From IMG/VR virus record IMGVR_UViG_3300006916_000346, positions 1-25,302 of that record: a stretch of DNA of 25,302 bases; one strand, 5' to 3'. Positions 12,864 to 23,901 of the stretch are shown one piece after another. The DNA comes from a virus. Every line of letters starts with the position of its first letter. Position 1 is the stretch's first letter. The notes under the pieces are model-generated. The model was not told where the DNA came from. It did no database searches and worked only from the letters and a program-made list of their open reading frames with translations. A program made the translations under genes and the position numbers.

Positions 12864-15134
12864 ATGTACGACGACTTATTTGAGTTGATGGTAGAGGGGG
12901 CATTTGCCAACAAAGCTGAGTTTGATGATTTTGTATCTGAGGCTTCTCAAGAAGAGATATACAGTTTAATTAAAGAGGGGGCTTTCAAAGATTTTGAAGA
13001 GTTTAAAAGTCTGTATTCTGCACCCGCACCTCAAGAAGCTGCGCCTCAAGAAGCCGCACCTGAAGTAAAAAAAAAAGATATTATGGAGCCATCTTTGGAA
13101 GATGGTTCATTGGTATCGCCCGAGTCTGAGCCTTCTGCTGAATTACCTGAAGTTCCCGTATTGCCTGAAGATTTTGATTTAGCCGAAGAGGTTAAAAAAT
13201 CACAGGAGATACAGCCAAAAGAAACTCGAGAAAGTGGTTACATAAATCCAATGGAGACATTGGGTATGTACCCTGAAGAGGGTGCTGTTCAAAAAGCACT
13301 TGAGCAGTCTACTAAAGACGTATTACTTACTCAAGCCAACATAGAAGCTGAAGCTCCTGCCCTCGAAGGGGTTTTAAAAGAAGAGGCTCGAAAAGAAGAA
13401 TATCTTGAGAATGTAAGAAAAGAGGCTTCTATTGTAAATACGTTAGAGGGTCACGTTAAAAATTCTTTTGAATTAAAAAATCCTTATGAGATTGAGAGAA
13501 ATCTTAAAGAAAGGTATAGTCGTTATGGATATTATTTTAAAAGAGCTTATGATGACAAGCTAACAATAATATCTCCTGATGGCAGAAAAAAAATTCAGGT
13601 TGATTTAAAAGCTCCTACTGAAGAACAAATTTCTTTGGTGGAAAATTTTATAAACTCTCATTACAAATACGATAGGCTTAAGGATATAATAAAGGAGGGG
13701 TCTAATTTAACTAGCAAATATGCTGATGCTGCTAAAGTTAAAACCTCGAGAGAGGTTGGCAGGAGAAATAAAGATGGCTCTGTATCGACCGTGCTTATGG
13801 CTTCGGGAGAGGTTGATGGCGAGTATGTTGCTTTTCCAACCTTATTTCCTAAAGACCCCGAAAACTATGGAGCTGCTCCTGAGTATTGGCAAGAGCTTCC
13901 TTTCGATGAAGCCTTAGACTTAGCTAAAGAGAGGGGTGAGGTATACTATTTTGATACTGATGAAGAGGCTAAAGAATTTGCTGAAGGCAGTTGGAAAGAT
14001 GTAACTGATGCCGATTTTGAGGGTCATGCATTTTACGCAAAAAAAGGGTTGGACTATATGCGAGACAAGCGTATAGTTGACACCTATACCAAGGCGAGGG
14101 ACATAGTCCTACTGATAGAAGATGATGAGGTCCCATTTAGACAGAATGAGCTTACTCCTGAAGACCAAGAGAAGTATGCAGAGCTGTACATAAATGGCAA
14201 ACGTAGAGAAGACTTACAAGATGTAAAGAATAAGTATGCTTCTACCGTAGAAACTCTTCAGAGAGAGTATTTGGATGACAAATACCAAGATGTTCGCGAA
14301 GACTTTGATGTCTATATGCAGAAGAGGTATGAGTCTGAAATACAAAAAGCGATTCAAGTAAATGAAATTGCTAAATCTCAGTTATCATCAGTAGCTAATA
14401 AGTCTTTGGAACTTTTTGGTGTTGCTGACCCCCGAAAAATACAGTCAGATAACGATGAAGCTGAGCTTCTGCTTTTGGAGTTTGAGGGAGCAAAGATGAC
14501 CGCTGAGGCTGCTGCTGACCAATATGAAAAAGCTAAGCTGTTTTTTGACAACAAGCATGATAAGTCAGCTAAAAAAAGATATTCAGATAATTGGGAGGCT
14601 TTTACTGATGAGGTGAGTCAGAGTTACTCGCAGGGCAAAGTGGGAGAGGTTGTTCTGATGTACTCAATGATGCCCGAATTTATAAGTGGGTACAATTCTG
14701 ATGACCCTGCATCAACGCGAAAGGTTGCTGAGGAGTTTGTCAAGCACATGAGCAAAGAATCTGAGACAAAGTCTAGGGTTATGAGCCGTTGGCAGCGTGC
14801 TAGGGGTTTTGACGAAGCATTAGACGTTGTTTTGGATGACCCCGCTGAGTGGATGGCTACACTTGCCGGTACATCTTTAAGCCAAATGGCTCCTTATGGT
14901 GTTAAGATTGTTCCTGCTTTTGCGCTAGGAGGCACGGCTGTTGGGGCAGCAGTGGGTGCTGCTGCGGGAGGTGTGGGGGCTATCCCCGGAGCTGCTTTAG
15001 GTTTTAGCCGAGGTATGAGATTAGGTTTTGCGGCTACAAACTTTACTTTGGAATACACCAACGCGGTTACTGATGCCATGAGAGAGCTTGGCTATGATGT
15101 TCTCAATCCCGAGGATGTGGCTAAAGCTTTATAG
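12864..15134 (+). CDS. Giant ejection protein, N-terminal part (756 aa) ending at an in-frame amber codon
   Basis: Starts at ATG 12864. Residues 5-25 and 32-52 are a tandem 21-residue repeat sharing EGAF....EF. A Pro/Ala/Glu linker follows (about 53-125), including three lysines from a 10-A run. Residues about 295-380 contain a module (NKDGSVSTVLMASGEVDGEY and a following FPTLFPKDP) that I recall from very large phage proteins. Residues about 400-620 are helical. Residues about 683-735 are a Gly/Ala-rich, glycine-zipper-like hydrophobic stretch that could insert in a membrane. The frame stops at TAG 15132-15134, but the same frame continues open to 23879 and the sequence around the TAG reads as one conserved domain. 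The 756-aa product may be real or only the first part of a 3671-aa protein. Confidence 0.75.
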   Translation: MYDDLFELMVEGAFANKAEFDDFVSEASQEEIYSLIKEGAFKDFEEFKSLYSAPAPQEAAPQEAAPEVKKKDIMEPSLEDGSLVSPESEPSAELPEVPVLPEDFDLAEEVKKSQEIQPKETRESGYINPMETLGMYPEEGAVQKALEQSTKDVLLTQANIEAEAPALEGVLKEEARKEEYLENVRKEASIVNTLEGHVKNSFELKNPYEIERNLKERYSRYGYYFKRAYDDKLTIISPDGRKKIQVDLKAPTEEQISLVENFINSHYKYDRLKDIIKEGSNLTSKYADAAKVKTSREVGRRNKDGSVSTVLMASGEVDGEYVAFPTLFPKDPENYGAAPEYWQELPFDEALDLAKERGEVYYFDTDEEAKEFAEGSWKDVTDADFEGHAFYAKKGLDYMRDKRIVDTYTKARDIVLLIEDDEVPFRQNELTPEDQEKYAELYINGKRREDLQDVKNKYASTVETLQREYLDDKYQDVREDFDVYMQKRYESEIQKAIQVNEIAKSQLSSVANKSLELFGVADPRKIQSDNDEAELLLLEFEGAKMTAEAAADQYEKAKLFFDNKHDKSAKKRYSDNWEAFTDEVSQSYSQGKVGEVVLMYSMMPEFISGYNSDDPASTRKVAEEFVKHMSKESETKSRVMSRWQRARGFDEALDVVLDDPAEWMATLAGTSLSQMAPYGVKIVPAFALGGTAVGAAVGAAAGGVGAIPGAALGFSRGMRLGFAATNFTLEYTNAVTDAMRELGYDVLNPEDVAKAL
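15132..15134 (+). other. Single in-frame TAG joining two parts of a 3671-codon ORF
   Basis: Codons read GCT AAA GCT TTA TAG GAT AAA GAT GTT TGG, giving AKAL-stop-DKDVW. The downstream ORF is in the same frame. No ATG in this frame occurs between the TAG and the conserved segment GLARGIPIAVVDYMSAGLAG; only TTG 15171, or an ATG inside the domain at about 15207, could restart translation. In related large phage proteins, as I recall them, a leucine-containing segment like this is directly followed by an acidic helix and a RGIPIA-type motif without a break. One base change (CAG to TAG) or suppression by a glutamine tRNA would restore the frame. Confidence 0.85.
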
Positions 15135-15170
15135 GATAAAGATGTTTGGGATAAAGGGCGTAAGAAAGGC

Positions 15171-18100
15171 TTGGCTAGGGGTATACCTATCGCTGTTGTT
15201 GACTATATGTCTGCCGGATTAGCAGGCAGGGTGTTTAGAGTAAGCCCTGTAGCCACCCGTGGTAATAAGATTGCTCGCCAAACTGCTGAAAGATTTGTAT
15301 TTGACCCTGCCGCAGAAGCTTTTGGAGAATTAACAGCTCAAATTAGCGCAGGTCAAGAGGTTGATTGGAAAGAAATAGCTGCTGAAGCAGGTGGAGGCCC
15401 TGCATCCAACACGGCATCTATGGCTGTAAACATGGCTATAGACGCTAGATTCAACAATGATGTTGAGTTGGCATCAAGGCTGACTGATTTTCAATACATG
15501 GCTAATGTTGGTGCTTCTAGTCAGAGGATTGCTGATTGGACCAACAATATGCTTAAGCTTGGTAAGATTGACGAGGAGACGGCTAAGCGCATAAACGACA
15601 ATGTGGGCGTTCTGAGAGAGGCTCAGCAGCTTTTGGGTGTCGGCAGAAGAGGTGGAAAATACAGGGGTCGCAATAAAGGAACTCTTGAGGGCAGGCTTTC
15701 TTTGTTGTTGGCTGCTCGGGCTGACTTTCAGGCCACTACTAACTCGAGAGAGGTTTATGCAGATAGAATTAGGGCAATCAATGATGAGATAAAGTACATC
15801 GTAGACAATAAGTCTATGCTGCCCGAAGACCAACAAGTGCTTTTATTGGGGTACGAAGGTCAGGGGACTCAAAGTGCTTTGCCTACCTACACAATTAGGA
15901 GAGGGTTTAGGGATGTAAAAGTTACCCGAGAGGAGTTTCTTAGGAGGCTCAGAGAAATAGACAGCAAGGAGAAGTTTTCTAAGTTCAACGGGACGGTAGA
16001 AAATGATGAGGAGATTGCTGCTGAGATGATGAAGAAAGCTGAGCAGTTTCAGGAGGAAGAAGAGGTGGACTTGGAGGGTATGCCCGAAAAGGTTGAGGAA
16101 GAAGCTGATGAAACGGTTGTCGAGCAGTCTCAGTCTCTTGAAGAGCTTTTGATTGAGCGTGGTATTCTCGATGAGGAGGTTGATGAGACAGATGAAGGGA
16201 AGACTGAAGAGGAGATAAAGGCTGAGAGGATTGCTAGAGACAGGCAGCAGCCTGAGCGTAAGCCACGCCCTAAGCCAACAGAAGAGCCTACTGCCGAGAA
16301 AAAAGTTTTTGCTCTTGAAATCATCGGCGAAAAGATGGTCAATGACAAGGGCGTTCTTGGCACTATCAAAGAAGAGAATGGCGGTATAATTTGGGAGAGT
16401 GAAGATGGAACCGAGGTAATTGATGGCGGAGGTAGGGAGAATGCTTCTACTGTCACTATTGATGACATGAGGTTATCGTTTCCTCCTGATGTAACACCTG
16501 AAGCTCCCGTTGAGCTGACCCCTGAAACTAAGCAGGAGTTTGTTCCTGCTGAGCAGAAGACTCAAGAAGAGTTGGAGGTGATGAGTGAGTTGGAGGTTGA
16601 AGAGGCTAGGCGCAAAGTTGATGAGGATGTCCAAGAGTTTGAGGATGCAATCTTGGATGAGATTGAGAGAGAGTCTGCAAACGAGAGAATCTTGTTCAAG
16701 TTTAAGGGCAGTGAATTTGCTGTATCCCAAAAGCCCGATGGGACATTTGTTGTCTCTAAGAAAAACACCAACGGGAAGTATGTATCTGTATCTAACAAGA
16801 AACAGAGGGCGGATGTCATAGCTGAGTTTGAAGACATCAAAGAAGACAGGGACAACGAGAGACTTAGGTTGGCTGAAGAGTTGGTTCTTGACTACAAGCA
16901 AGAGCTTTTAGAGCCATTTGGAGAGAAGGTAGAGAGACCGAAGGTACAAGCACCTCCCAAGAAGAAGAGGAGGAAGTCTAGAAAAAAGGGAGAATCAGTT
17001 ACCCCTAAGCAAGAAGCTGCTCCTGTGGTAGAGGAGGCACAGGTGCCCCCTAAAAAGAAATCTACCGCAAAGAAAAAATCAGAGACCAAGGTTGAGACAA
17101 CCACTAAGCTATCTGTCAAGGAGCTTCAGCAACAGAAAGATGCTGAGACAGTTGCTGCTGCTAGGAAAAAGTACAATGTACCCGATGGTATAGAGCCTAC
17201 AATAACCGAAAGAAAGGGCTCTGCTTTTAATGAAAATGACCTTTTTGATGAATATGAATATGAGCTTGAAGATGGCTCAGTAAGGAGAATAACATTTAAG
17301 AAGAACAAGAACGGAACGCTTTCTAAGAAAGGTGATACATCTTTTACTTTCTCTTCTCGGTCAGTGAAACAAAAGAAAATAGAAGATAAACTTATTCCCA
17401 TTTTTAGAGAGGCATTTGAAAAACTTGGAGCAAGGAAGTTTATAAATATTTATAGCAAAACAATAGACCCGTTTTATCATATAGGCAGGAAAGAAAAAGG
17501 AACTTGGCTTTTCACTATTGAAAAGAATGCTACAATACCCCCTTTTACTTTTGCATTTGAGACATCAAATTTGATTCTTGCTAAAGATGATGGTAAGTCA
17601 AAGCTTGATGAGTTTATAAAGCAAGTGGGGCTTGAGGGAAGTCAATCTGTAGCTGAATACAATGAGTTTCTAAAGACTGTACCTATAAATGAGCAGGGTC
17701 TTATTGAAAAAGAAGCTGCTCCTGTAGCTGAGGAGGCTGCGCCTGTAGTTGAGGAGGTAGCTGAAGAGGCTGCACCTGTGGCTGAAGAAGTGGCAGAAGA
17801 GGTGGCAGAAGAGGTGGCTGAACCTAAGCGTGGTGTGCTACAGGATGCTGAGTTTGAAAACATACTGAGACGTAGTCAGTTAAACCCTGACCTCCTTCAG
17901 AAAGAACTTGATGAGTTTGCTGAATATGAGCGTCAGATTGAGGAGCTTCAAGATTCTCCTGCTGAGCTTAAAAAGGTCAAGGCTAAGGAGGCTAAGCGAA
18001 AGAATGCTATCAAGAAAGCTAGGCGCGGCAAGATTGCTGAGATTGAAAAAGAGCAGGAGCAGATAAGGAAGGCTGAAGAGACAAAGAGAAAAGCTGAGGA

Positions 18101-21100
18101 GAGGAAGGAGACTAAGCGTGAGCTAAATACGGCAGAAAAACTGCGCTCAGAAATAGCTACCCTCACGAAGATTAGAGATAAATCTAAGGAGGGGACTGAT
18201 GAATACAACAGGGTTCAGTCTGCTATTGATGAGAAGACCAAAGCCCTCAATAATTTATTGGGAGTAACGCCTGAGAGAAAGAAGAAGTCAGAGGCAACTA
18301 TACAACCTAAGACAAGGCAACAGAAGAAAGCTGCTTCTGATTCCAAGAAGAAGCAGAATAAAATCTCAAAAATTGTAGCCAAGGCTAGAAAGGCTGAGTC
18401 TGACTTGACAGAGTTGAGCAAGCAGCTTATTGAGGCTCAAGAAAAGAAGCAGAAAATTTTTGATTCGGATAAGTTTAATCCGAGAGGGCTGAAAGCAGCA
18501 GATAAGAAGATAGCTTCATTGAGGGCTAAGATTGAAAAGCTTAATCAGTCCAAAAAGCAATTGGCTCAAGAGCTTAGCACCATACAGGGTATTCAGTTTC
18601 AGTTGAATACTAAGCCATCTGAAATAAATGTTCAGTTAAAGGAGCAACTTTTAGAGTCAGCCATGAGAGTCATGGATGAAATCGGCTTCGAGGAAACAGG
18701 TATCACCCTGACTAGACCATTTGAATCGTACCCTATCAATGTCACTGAGAATGTGAGGTTGGTAAAGCGGGCGGGACGTATGCCGCTAATTGAACTTGTT
18801 GGTAGTAGAGTAAATCTGCTTATGGCTGACAGGCTTAAGGTAGATGAGAATAGAATGGGAGGCCCTCTGTTTGCTTTTCAGGATGGCATATTTGGGTACA
18901 ACATAGCTTGGGCATCTATTGACGAGGGTGCTGCTAGAAGGATAGCGAGAGGAGCCGCGAACTCAGACTATAGCGTGGTGTACAACATGAGTTCCACCGG
19001 GATAGATTCAAACATGGTTTTGTTTGACTTGCTATTCGAGAAGATTGAAGCTACACGCAGACCTAGAAAGATTTTTAGGATGATGATGGAGCGTATGCAG
19101 ACATTGAGATTTGATGAAAAAGCTAGTGAAACTGTTTTAACTGAGAAGATTCATGCCATAGCCAAGAAGTCGAAGGATGTAAAGACTTTTCTTGCGGAGG
19201 TAGAGAAGCTCGGGGCTGATGCTCGCTCTAGCATATTCAAGAAAGTTACTCCAACATCAGATGTAAATTCGAGGGATGCGTTTTTGAAAATTCTTCAAGA
19301 AGAAAACATCAACGCAGACACACTGAGAGCTGAACTCTCAGAGCAGCTTGCTGACGACCTACCCATGGGGTCACTCATTACTGTGCTTAAGATTACAGAC
19401 AAGCAAGGCAATCCTGTTACTAACGAAACCATTGACGAGGCTTTGGTCTTTAGAGATGAGCAGAAGAAGATGGGTGTAAAGGAACACAGAAACTATCCCG
19501 TGTACTTGAGGGGTTATCCTGTCGCTATACTTTCAGATACTGCTCCGTTTTGGAATATGAGTGAGGCTTCTCTGAACGATATAAACAATCAGCTTTCACT
19601 TATATCCAAGGAAGACTTAAGTTTTAGCGAGATTACTAGAAGATTGGAGAGGTCAGCTCAGTTTGGTGCGAACAAAGTTTTTGAGGTTCAGTCCCCTACA
19701 GATATTCAGTACGCATCTTTTGTAGAAAAGCTCTCAAGCGCATTCCCTACGCTAGAGGTTGCTGCTACAAAGCAGGAGTTTGAAAGACTACTGAAAGACC
19801 CCGAGGTCAAGAAGCTTACCACAAAAAGCCAAAAGATATATGGTGCTGTGTATCAGGGTAAGCTGTACTTAAATCCTAGCCTCGCCAATTACAATACACC
19901 TGTCCACGAATTTGGTCACGTTTGGATGAATGCGGCTAAGGAATTGAGACCCGACCTGTACAAGAAGGGTATTGAGCTTGTAAAGAAGAGTCAATACATT
20001 GAACAAGTAACAAACAGTGCAGATTATTCTCAACTGATTGCTAGGATGAAGAGGCAGGGTATGCCTCAAGCCGAGATAGATGCTTACATAGCAGAGGAAG
20101 CATTAGCAACCGCCATAGGAGATAAGGGAGAATCATTTGTAAACGCTGCTCAAAAAAGAAACTTCAAGTCTTGGCTCAATGACCTGTTCAAGTTCATCAA
20201 GAAACTGACAGGGATATCTAAGTTTACTGAAGAGCAAGTTCAGAACTTGACATTTGATGAGTTCTTGCAGGGTGTGGTCGTTGACCTCATGTCTGAGAAT
20301 GAATTGTTTGAAGGCGCAGAGAGTGCAAAGTTGGCGAGTACCCTTCAGCTTATGTCTGCTCCATCAAATCAGACAATGATAAACATCATTGAAACCGCTA
20401 GAGCTTCCGGCAAACATTCAGATGCTACGATAAAAGAGTTCTTGAAGGCGAAAGGCTACAAGGTTGATGAGATAGATGCAGCTCTCGCTGACAAGGCGAG
20501 ATATTTTGAGCTGATGCCCGAGTCATTCAGAAAGATTGTAGGTGGCTATAACGCAGCATCTAAGTTGTTCAATGAAACTAGATTGGCTTTGGCTGAGTTT
20601 AAGAAGAAGACTCAGGCAACCAACTCTGAGGTGAGGGCGAAGGCAAAGGAACTGCTCGAGTCACATTCTGTATTCAACGAGCAGACAGAACAGGTTCAGA
20701 AAGAGATACTGCTTGGCTTCGACAATATGCTAGGCATAAAAGCCAATAAGAATGTAGCTCAAGAGATAGCCAATATCAGAAACAATCTGAAGCAGAGGAA
20801 GATAGCGGTCAAGAATTTGAAGGCTGAGCAGAAAGCTATGAGAGATTTCATACGGAGAAATCTCATACTATCTAAGAACTATAGCAGTGCTGATGTAGTA
20901 AAGCTTTTGAATGCTCTAAGTGATGCCACTACTCCCGAGAAATTTGGAGCGGTAGCACTAAAAGCTCTGAATATAATAGAGCGTCAGAAGGTTGTGAAGA
21001 AGAAAGACTTGATATCGGAGATTAAAAAATTAGTTACTCGTAAGACTATAAAGAATCCACCCGACAACAACCAACGAGTCAGGCCGAGGGGTCTCGATGC

Positions 21101-23879
21101 TCAGGGAGAATCTTTCTTTACACAGGCTCAGCGCATAGTTGATGCGTACATGAACATTGACAAGTTTCCTCGTAAAATACAGGAGATAGAGAATGAGTTG
21201 GCATCCCAAGAGGGGTTGATATCAGAGCTTCTAGGTAAGGAAGAGAGGGGCGAAAGAAGAACCTCTGAGGAGCAGAGCCTCCTTGACTTGGCCTACGCCT
21301 ACGACATATTGGGGGGCATGGACTCCATGACTGCCGATGAGGTTTCTGATGTTCTAGATGCCCTGAAGGGCGAGAAGAAGAAGTCAGCAATAAGGCTCAA
21401 GGAATCTAGACTCGCTAGGAAAGCCAAGTATGATGCGGTAATTGGCGAAGCGAATAGGCAGTTGATGGACAGTAATCCGTTGTTGTTCAACGAAGATGGT
21501 AAGCCTAGAAACACCAATGAGATTCAAGAGAAGAAAGATGAGATAGCTGAGACCTTCCTCAAGAGAGGTTTCTTGAATGCTATTAAGACTTTGAAAAACT
21601 CTTATGATGTTAGTAGCAGGGCTTCAATATTTAAGTCTTTGTCTACTAGTCTGAAGTCTTTGAAAACATTTATGAATCGTCTTGATAGAGTTACAGAGGG
21701 TAAAAATGTCTTTACCAAGAATGTGTATGACAAAATCAACATGATGATTGAGGTGAGGAATGACTACAACAGGAAGACCTTATCAGACTTAGATTCCATA
21801 GCTAGAGATGCGGGATTCAAGAACTATGTAGCTCTGAAGAAAGCTCTGTATGTAGGCACTCTTAAGATAGGTACTAAGAGAATGCACGGAGACCAAGCCT
21901 TGAGGGTGTACGCTTTGTATCAGAATGAAGTGCAGCGGAAGAAGCTAAACAGACAGGGTATAGGTGACAAGGAGATTCAGCAGATTGAGGATGCGCTCGG
22001 TAGTAAGGTTATAAAATTTGCTGATGGTGTCGTGAACTACCTGTCTACGACCTATTACAACCAAGTAAATGATGTTCATATAGACGTAAATGATGTCGGA
22101 GTTCCATTCGTAGAGAACTACTTTCCTACGAAGACATTGATTCAGAATCAAGAAATGGCACGCGACCTCTTGGGTAACGATGGTTCCGACTTTATGAAAT
22201 CCTTTGACGCTCAAACTCAGTCTGCTCTGAAGCAGAGGATAGATACCGAGGGGGAAGTTGAGCTATATAGCACAGGGTTTACATCCGCACTCGAATACCA
22301 CTACACTAGCATGAATAAGTTTAGGGCTTATGCTATGGGTGTGAAGGAGATAAACGCCCTTCTTTCATCACCTGCGGTAAAGACCCTGTTGGATTTGACA
22401 CGGCTGACTAACCCTGTGAGAGCTGCTATCAACCATGAGATAAACCCTGAGAGGACGATGGTAATAACTCAGGGCAGTCCTGTTGTAAACTTTCTTATGT
22501 CTAGGTTCGTCAGTCTGATGCTGAACTTTAAGATTTGGCAGATACCAAAGCAGTTCAGCTCATTCATAGCGGCTTTCAGAGATTATGACTATACGGGAAA
22601 AGACTCTTCACTACCCAATGTATTAAGGAGGAGAGTAGACTTTCCAATGTTCATCCTTGAGAATTTGGTGACAATGGCTTTGCTTCCGTTAGAACTCGTA
22701 AAGAACGGCCCTATATCTAAGATGAGGGAGAAGTCTGCTACGTTTGACGAGCGTGTAAGAGAGTCTCTGAGTGGGGATGTGTACAATCTAGTGGGTAACA
22801 ATCTAAAGGTTTCTGAGCCCGATGCTCTTAAAAGATTGACCTATAATCAGAGGCGGGCGTTGAGTATACTTTCGGGTGAGCCGATAAGGAAGATTGGTAA
22901 TGCAATGGGTACGGGATTGGGTGACATACTCGGTATCATTGGTTACATAACAAACTACAAGAGGAACATCAAGAATGGTATGTCAGAAGAGGAGGCTCTG
23001 AAGGTGTTTAACGACTACAACACTACTCAGCAGTCTAGAAGAACCACAGATAAAGCAGCGGTTCAGAACAATCCCGCTCTTGCTAACAAGTTCTTTACTC
23101 TGTTTGCTAGTATGCCGCTCCTTATGATTAACAATGTCATGTCTGCGGCCCTCAATATCAGTCGAGATGTGGTCAGAACAAAGCCGCGTATGCCAAGGAC
23201 TGAGGACTTGAGGGCACTTGCTCTAAACTTGGGATTAATTAATGTCGCGTTCGTAGCTACGGCTAACTTTTTCAAGTTCACTAAAGGTGACGACGAGGAT
23301 AGGGATGAGGTATATCAAGACCTCATAAATGCTGCGATGGGTGTCAACCTCTTGTTGGAGATACCTATATTTTCGGGCATATTCCAAGACTTAGATGCGG
23401 CAGGACGAATTATGGCTGCGCTTAAAGGGGAGGATTACAAGAGGAAGTTTCAGATTAGGTCAGGTACAGCCGTTGACCCATTGAGGCAAATCTATTATAG
23501 GATAAATAGAGAAATGAAAGAGGGTAAGGGAGCGATGGAGTCCACACTAAAGACTAGTCTTGAACTTGGCCTTGGCGCATCATCAGACCCCGCAGTAGGG
23601 ATAGGTAACTTGATAAGGGGTAGAGGTTTCACTAAGCAAGATGGTATTGAATCTGTGAAAGATTTTTATGACCTGATGGGTGTCAGTAAATCATACAGAC
23701 CATCCTACCTATACGATGAGGAGAAGAAGAGTAAAGAGAAGTCTTACAACTACAAGTTTGAGTTTGAGAAGGAGATGGATAGGGAGATTAAGATTCTCAA
23801 GAAGGAGATGGGGATGGACTTGGGAGATGATATTATGACCGAGCAAGATTTGATGGACGAAATTTTTGAGGGAATGTAA
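15171..23879 (+). CDS. Giant ejection protein, C-terminal part (2902 aa) with zinc metalloprotease motif
   Basis: Probably the continuation of the upstream ORF; the nominal TTG start at 15171 is doubtful. It opens with GLARGIPIAVVDYMSAGLAG. Residues about 280-1130 are long charged linkers and coiled coils, including a basic patch (KKKRRKSRKKG) and an EEVAEE/APV repeat. Residues about 1180-1300 form a globular block (LFAFQDGIFGYNIAWAS). A zinc-binding HEFGH lies at residues 1579-1583, with a possible third ligand at Glu1642 or Glu1643, marking a zincin-type metalloprotease. The rest is mostly helical, with hydrophobic segments near 2490-2510 and 2680-2705. By position and size it matches T7 gp16-like ejected proteins and large polyvalent proteins. 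It would be packaged in the capsid and delivered into the host envelope. Arginine is mostly AGA/AGG, unlike the capsid gene. The TAA stop is directly followed by TAG. Confidence 0.8.
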   Translation: MARGIPIAVVDYMSAGLAGRVFRVSPVATRGNKIARQTAERFVFDPAAEAFGELTAQISAGQEVDWKEIAAEAGGGPASNTASMAVNMAIDARFNNDVELASRLTDFQYMANVGASSQRIADWTNNMLKLGKIDEETAKRINDNVGVLREAQQLLGVGRRGGKYRGRNKGTLEGRLSLLLAARADFQATTNSREVYADRIRAINDEIKYIVDNKSMLPEDQQVLLLGYEGQGTQSALPTYTIRRGFRDVKVTREEFLRRLREIDSKEKFSKFNGTVENDEEIAAEMMKKAEQFQEEEEVDLEGMPEKVEEEADETVVEQSQSLEELLIERGILDEEVDETDEGKTEEEIKAERIARDRQQPERKPRPKPTEEPTAEKKVFALEIIGEKMVNDKGVLGTIKEENGGIIWESEDGTEVIDGGGRENASTVTIDDMRLSFPPDVTPEAPVELTPETKQEFVPAEQKTQEELEVMSELEVEEARRKVDEDVQEFEDAILDEIERESANERILFKFKGSEFAVSQKPDGTFVVSKKNTNGKYVSVSNKKQRADVIAEFEDIKEDRDNERLRLAEELVLDYKQELLEPFGEKVERPKVQAPPKKKRRKSRKKGESVTPKQEAAPVVEEAQVPPKKKSTAKKKSETKVETTTKLSVKELQQQKDAETVAAARKKYNVPDGIEPTITERKGSAFNENDLFDEYEYELEDGSVRRITFKKNKNGTLSKKGDTSFTFSSRSVKQKKIEDKLIPIFREAFEKLGARKFINIYSKTIDPFYHIGRKEKGTWLFTIEKNATIPPFTFAFETSNLILAKDDGKSKLDEFIKQVGLEGSQSVAEYNEFLKTVPINEQGLIEKEAAPVAEEAAPVVEEVAEEAAPVAEEVAEEVAEEVAEPKRGVLQDAEFENILRRSQLNPDLLQKELDEFAEYERQIEELQDSPAELKKVKAKEAKRKNAIKKARRGKIAEIEKEQEQIRKAEETKRKAEERKETKRELNTAEKLRSEIATLTKIRDKSKEGTDEYNRVQSAIDEKTKALNNLLGVTPERKKKSEATIQPKTRQQKKAASDSKKKQNKISKIVAKARKAESDLTELSKQLIEAQEKKQKIFDSDKFNPRGLKAADKKIASLRAKIEKLNQSKKQLAQELSTIQGIQFQLNTKPSEINVQLKEQLLESAMRVMDEIGFEETGITLTRPFESYPINVTENVRLVKRAGRMPLIELVGSRVNLLMADRLKVDENRMGGPLFAFQDGIFGYNIAWASIDEGAARRIARGAANSDYSVVYNMSSTGIDSNMVLFDLLFEKIEATRRPRKIFRMMMERMQTLRFDEKASETVLTEKIHAIAKKSKDVKTFLAEVEKLGADARSSIFKKVTPTSDVNSRDAFLKILQEENINADTLRAELSEQLADDLPMGSLITVLKITDKQGNPVTNETIDEALVFRDEQKKMGVKEHRNYPVYLRGYPVAILSDTAPFWNMSEASLNDINNQLSLISKEDLSFSEITRRLERSAQFGANKVFEVQSPTDIQYASFVEKLSSAFPTLEVAATKQEFERLLKDPEVKKLTTKSQKIYGAVYQGKLYLNPSLANYNTPVHEFGHVWMNAAKELRPDLYKKGIELVKKSQYIEQVTNSADYSQLIARMKRQGMPQAEIDAYIAEEALATAIGDKGESFVNAAQKRNFKSWLNDLFKFIKKLTGISKFTEEQVQNLTFDEFLQGVVVDLMSENELFEGAESAKLASTLQLMSAPSNQTMINIIETARASGKHSDATIKEFLKAKGYKVDEIDAALADKARYFELMPESFRKIVGGYNAASKLFNETRLALAEFKKKTQATNSEVRAKAKELLESHSVFNEQTEQVQKEILLGFDNMLGIKANKNVAQEIANIRNNLKQRKIAVKNLKAEQKAMRDFIRRNLILSKNYSSADVVKLLNALSDATTPEKFGAVALKALNIIERQKVVKKKDLISEIKKLVTRKTIKNPPDNNQRVRPRGLDAQGESFFTQAQRIVDAYMNIDKFPRKIQEIENELASQEGLISELLGKEERGERRTSEEQSLLDLAYAYDILGGMDSMTADEVSDVLDALKGEKKKSAIRLKESRLARKAKYDAVIGEANRQLMDSNPLLFNEDGKPRNTNEIQEKKDEIAETFLKRGFLNAIKTLKNSYDVSSRASIFKSLSTSLKSLKTFMNRLDRVTEGKNVFTKNVYDKINMMIEVRNDYNRKTLSDLDSIARDAGFKNYVALKKALYVGTLKIGTKRMHGDQALRVYALYQNEVQRKKLNRQGIGDKEIQQIEDALGSKVIKFADGVVNYLSTTYYNQVNDVHIDVNDVGVPFVENYFPTKTLIQNQEMARDLLGNDGSDFMKSFDAQTQSALKQRIDTEGEVELYSTGFTSALEYHYTSMNKFRAYAMGVKEINALLSSPAVKTLLDLTRLTNPVRAAINHEINPERTMVITQGSPVVNFLMSRFVSLMLNFKIWQIPKQFSSFIAAFRDYDYTGKDSSLPNVLRRRVDFPMFILENLVTMALLPLELVKNGPISKMREKSATFDERVRESLSGDVYNLVGNNLKVSEPDALKRLTYNQRRALSILSGEPIRKIGNAMGTGLGDILGIIGYITNYKRNIKNGMSEEEALKVFNDYNTTQQSRRTTDKAAVQNNPALANKFFTLFASMPLLMINNVMSAALNISRDVVRTKPRMPRTEDLRALALNLGLINVAFVATANFFKFTKGDDEDRDEVYQDLINAAMGVNLLLEIPIFSGIFQDLDAAGRIMAALKGEDYKRKFQIRSGTAVDPLRQIYYRINREMKEGKGAMESTLKTSLELGLGASSDPAVGIGNLIRGRGFTKQDGIESVKDFYDLMGVSKSYRPSYLYDEEKKSKEKSYNYKFEFEKEMDREIKILKKEMGMDLGDDIMTEQDLMDEIFEGM
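17712..17825 (+). repeat. Degenerate Ala/Pro/Val/Glu coding repeat
   Basis: This stretch encodes repeated units of the type AAPVAEEVAEE, ending in three consecutive VAEE copies; the DNA alternates GCTCCTGTAGCTGAGGAG-like and GTGGCAGAAGAG-like units. It sits between a globular block and a long coiled coil of the giant protein, so it is probably a flexible acidic linker. A simpler form (APQEAAPQEAAPE) occurs near the N-terminus at about 13021-13065. Such repeats expand and contract easily. Confidence 0.8.
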
Positions 23880-23901
23880 TAGGGGTAAGTGATTACCCCT
23901 A
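23880..23901. terminator. Hairpin between convergent transcription units
   Basis: TAGGGGTAA (23880-23888) pairs perfectly with TTACCCCTA (23893-23901) across a GTGA loop. It begins one base after the giant ORF stop codon and includes the TAG stop of the minus-strand nuclease gene. Neither side has a clear run of T residues after the stem, so it may be a weak bidirectional terminator or an mRNA-stabilising 3' end for both transcripts. Confidence 0.6.

Follow-up and report, generated by a model that had tools for sequence, protein, structure and literature searches.

Very large cargo proteins are carried in the virions of crassviruses (PMC10172136), and some Crassvirales are documented to read TAG as glutamine (code 15; PMC7886860, PMC9523058). 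The mark of a code-15 crAss-like phage is the presence of standard stops inside conserved genes, among them those for terminase, major capsid protein and portal (PMC7886860), and a suppressor tRNA with a CUA anticodon has been detected in about half of code-15 phages (PMC11210395). For one crAss-like phage of the beta group, an incipient code change of the suppressor-tRNA kind has been described (PMC7886860). Here, we report a giant gene for a putative virion protein in an uncultured crAss-like phage, interrupted by one in-frame TAG. From comparison of related sequences, we read this codon with high confidence as a private single-base nonsense change (an error or a real mutation) in an otherwise intact gene of 3671 codons, with TAG probably remaining an ordinary stop and no dedicated recoding.

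The source record is a virus fragment of 25302 bases (25 kb), the whole of which was analysed and is referred to as the window (features in Table 1). Genes upstream of the giant gene matched phage virion structural families (PHROG), and in a nearly identical sister contig, terminase and portal genes precede the operon (PHROG matches). These matches agree with a crAss-like placing, for which the specificity to Crassvirales comes from PF25729. Given its muzzle domain of crassvirus type and the virion genes that go with it, the source is an uncultured crAss-like phage; a DNA similarity search against deposited phages returned no match, and neither did a search of Rfam. The position of the giant gene after crassvirus-like virion genes makes it plausible that its product is a large ejected virion protein. 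PhicrAss001 also has a muzzle protein, and its virions carry very large cargo proteins (gp45-gp50; PMC10172136), to which the giant gene corresponds by gene position and size only. Full-length alignment to the more distant cargo proteins L002-L004 left only the HEFGH region clearly in common, and the TAG site lies outside that part. The region suggests a conserved zincin-like protease domain, with a putative metalloprotease role.

Table 1. Features of the window that bear on the in-frame TAG
Feature	Position	Strand	Basis
Giant cargo/ejection-protein gene (putative virion protein), 3671 codons, one TAG inside in this contig	12864..23879	+	Single internal stop; sister frame unbroken
In-frame TAG; glutamate codon in sister contig, one transversion apart	15132..15134	+	Frame reading and sister comparison
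Conserved region across TAG site, continuous in nine relatives	14514..16013	+	Relatives; partial Pfam DUF6861 match upstream of site; PHROG 32588 across site
Protein with crassvirus muzzle C-terminal domain PF25729	9349..10125	+	E = 6e-17; sets operon among crAss-like virion genes
HEFGH motif (HExxH, zincin-like)	19905..19919	+	In only segment clearly common to more distant cargo proteins L002-L004

The 11 kb of otherwise open frame is plainly one gene. A reading of the frame for internal stops agreed with the original prediction, made from the letters of the window, that it is open except for one TAG; this was the only internal stop found, the terminal stop being a TAA at 23877, and the products on either side (756 and 2914 amino acids) lie in one common frame. 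Both sides had also been taken to form one domain, and homologues do carry that domain whole: a PHROG 32588 match runs uninterrupted over the site (residues 135-307 of the segment from the sister, with the site at residue 207), and the stretch around the site is conserved in all homologues found to span it. The further claim that no good restart follows the TAG is weak as evidence; the downstream in-frame TTG, ATG or GTG codons (15171, 15207 and 15231) are without a Shine-Dalgarno sequence, but the missing signal says little, because a clear Shine-Dalgarno sequence is absent from most listed genes of the window.

The sister contig (IMGVR_UViG_3300006919_000245, in IMG/VR) is 99.85% identical over the entire window, with 39 substitutions in 25302 positions and no gaps. 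It is the one close relative in the comparison, and it alone was returned when viral contigs were scanned by exact pattern for sequences closely matching the site. Gene content and order are the same, and the cargo gene is likewise of 3671 codons; unlike the window, however, the sister has a glutamate codon in place of the TAG, and its giant gene is one unbroken frame (3673 codons stop to stop). The change at 15132 is the only difference between positions 13321 and 16091, which implies that the TAG either arose very recently or is an artefact. Reads with a sense codon at 15132 were the outcome that the original prediction had set against a TAG with a special role; applied to this relative, the same test gives a codon for glutamate. 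Of the readings listed there, only the third, a point mutation, fits this glutamate and the sense codons in eight more homologues.

Those homologues came from a two-sequence profile search, which returned seven further contigs, six of them viral and one from a bacterial metagenome-assembled genome (MAG), with MW202828.1 additional. Together with the sister they make nine relatives that cover the site, the eight more distant ones at about 30-42% identity. In all nine, the frame stays open through the site, with a sense codon at it, for glutamate (three), glutamine (three), Asn, Ser or Met. The neighbourhood is conserved (e.g., V202, L206, R222, G223 and D230) and the site position itself is variable; such varied sense residues point to a tolerant position, not a conserved recoding site. 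In two additional phages with short matches, the site is also read through. MW202828.1 (Podoviridae sp. isolate ctfjg026) has a homologous giant gene of 11.6 kb that is correspondingly placed after virion structural genes. Across the site it shares about 31% identity with the window gene, but it has glutamine (CAA) there and no stop.

The same alignments bear on whether the TAG is a genuine boundary between two separate genes. Start codons are present in frame downstream, as such a boundary would need, but the frame is continuous in 9/9 relatives covering the site, the stop falls within a conserved stretch, and none of the relatives has a stop or a gene boundary at this point. Alignment of homologues across the site had been put forward as the way to recognise two genes; all nine relatives have a single frame, and the two-gene reading is already contradicted by these alignments and retains a negligible probability.

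Regulated readthrough at a dedicated site had been offered as a means of making two proteins, of 756 and 3671 aa, and no other stop breaks the frame that these would share. Programmed readthrough would be recognised by a stop conserved among relatives, and the sense codons in the sister and the eight further homologues show that this site is not conserved. Moreover, the TAG falls in the middle of a conserved domain, and the 100 bases 3' of it contain no unusual RNA structure, folding slightly worse than shuffled sequences (z = +1.21). Because the stop is not conserved and the downstream folding is no better than shuffled, we consider it very unlikely that the site is dedicated to readthrough, and we give the production of two proteins in this way hardly any credence.

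Recoding or suppression of the TAG, probably to glutamine, was together with readthrough the reading towards which the original prediction leaned; it also observed that this is the only TAG to interrupt a gene here. The observation was borne out by codon counts (one in-frame TAG in 8139 codons of the window genes, against 179 CAG and 135 CAA). The proposal itself fared poorly against the glutamate in the sister, the sense codons in eight homologues, the single TAG, and the tRNA search, which found no tRNA genes, including any for a CUA-anticodon suppressor, in the window, the sister fragment or the pieces of other relatives, all of which are fragments.

A phage-wide or late-gene reassignment of TAG to glutamine, as in some Crassvirales, would suit the operon of a crAss-like phage and the glutamine found at the aligned position in 3/9 relatives. 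Code-15 Crassvirales (PMC7886860, PMC9523058) share the crAss-like virion operon with the window phage, but their conserved late genes contain TAGs in frame and a suppressor tRNA is often present, whereas the window has one TAG and no tRNA was found. Repeated in-frame TAGs in conserved late genes were thus not seen, nor were standard stops inside conserved genes of the window, and the large genes of the sister contain no in-frame TAG. In a distant relative (G003), a TAG stands between two stretches in one common frame, the first terminase-sized and the second portal-sized (763 and 811 codons, matching the sister), which indicates that TAG is a stop there. Code 15 is already strongly contradicted by these counts, by the glutamate in the sister and by the stop in G003, and we consider it extremely improbable. 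Two window genes end in TAG (one at 311-313, the other on the minus strand with its end at 23899), but these ends were set aside as evidence for a stop function of TAG; they do not discriminate, because an in-frame TAA follows one to three codons later and translation of the TAG as glutamine would add almost nothing to either gene.

An incipient code change would place a new suppressor tRNA outside the fragment, in a strain that reads its private TAG as an amino acid. The beta-group crAss-like phage (PMC7886860) is a precedent, and the window is a fragment of its genome. Against this, neither the window nor the sister fragment yielded a tRNA, the TAG is private to one contig, and a single TAG is also what chance would give, since random substitutions in the window genes are nonsense in about 4% of cases; we regard such a change as very improbable. 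A stop that was real and suppressed would be a code change caught at its start, but nothing here demands such a reading. Most likely, the TAG arose once, by mutation or as a wrong base in this one assembly, with no new reading of the code, and in this lineage TAG most likely functions as an ordinary stop.

Two routes could have led to this single-base change. A wrong base may have entered during library preparation, sequencing or assembly, giving a TAG in one contig; alternatively, a real nonsense mutation may be present in part of the virus population, probably damaging its carrier. The 39 differences between window and sister comprise 34 transitions and 5 transversions. The transitions are balanced in direction and mostly synonymous (29/34, with 5/34 altering the protein). 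The transversions, the TAG among them, all run from G:C in the sister to T:A in the window (5/5), and 4/5 alter the protein. The G:C to T:A spectrum is typical of oxidised guanine. The protein-altering share differs between the classes (4/5 versus 5/34; p about 0.007), a contrast tempered by the tendency of transversions to change proteins more often than transitions in any case. Random G>T/C>A changes in the window genes would alter the protein in 89.6% of cases (79% missense, 11% nonsense). The five transversions thus look less filtered by selection than the other differences, as oxidised-guanine errors would be, and their spectrum, on these five changes only, suggests damaged DNA or a miscalled base more readily than an established allele. 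We infer that an error is somewhat the more probable origin of the TAG. A true nonsense mutation in part of the virus population is possible and, if such, would probably be crippling to the phage carrying it. When a very long metagenomic phage gene shows a lone stop, comparison with near-identical contigs should come before any appeal to recoding.

Several minor observations were made on the contigs compared. Differences between window and sister are clustered tightly at 13311-13321, 16091-16104 and 20528-20531, as in recombining populations or mosaic assemblies. The 11.6 kb homologue in MW202828.1 (6735-17293) is labelled "reticulocyte binding/rhoptry protein", most likely a mis-annotation. 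Limnohabitans phage DC33 (PQ492659.1; 39 kb), whose giant gene of 9.4 kb is related to this domain, is classified in the Inoviridae (filamentous phages), which matches neither its size nor this gene. The phage gene studied here also occurs on PIVT01000128.1 (6 kb, from a Proteobacteria MAG), which is probably a phage contig binned into the MAG or a piece of a prophage.
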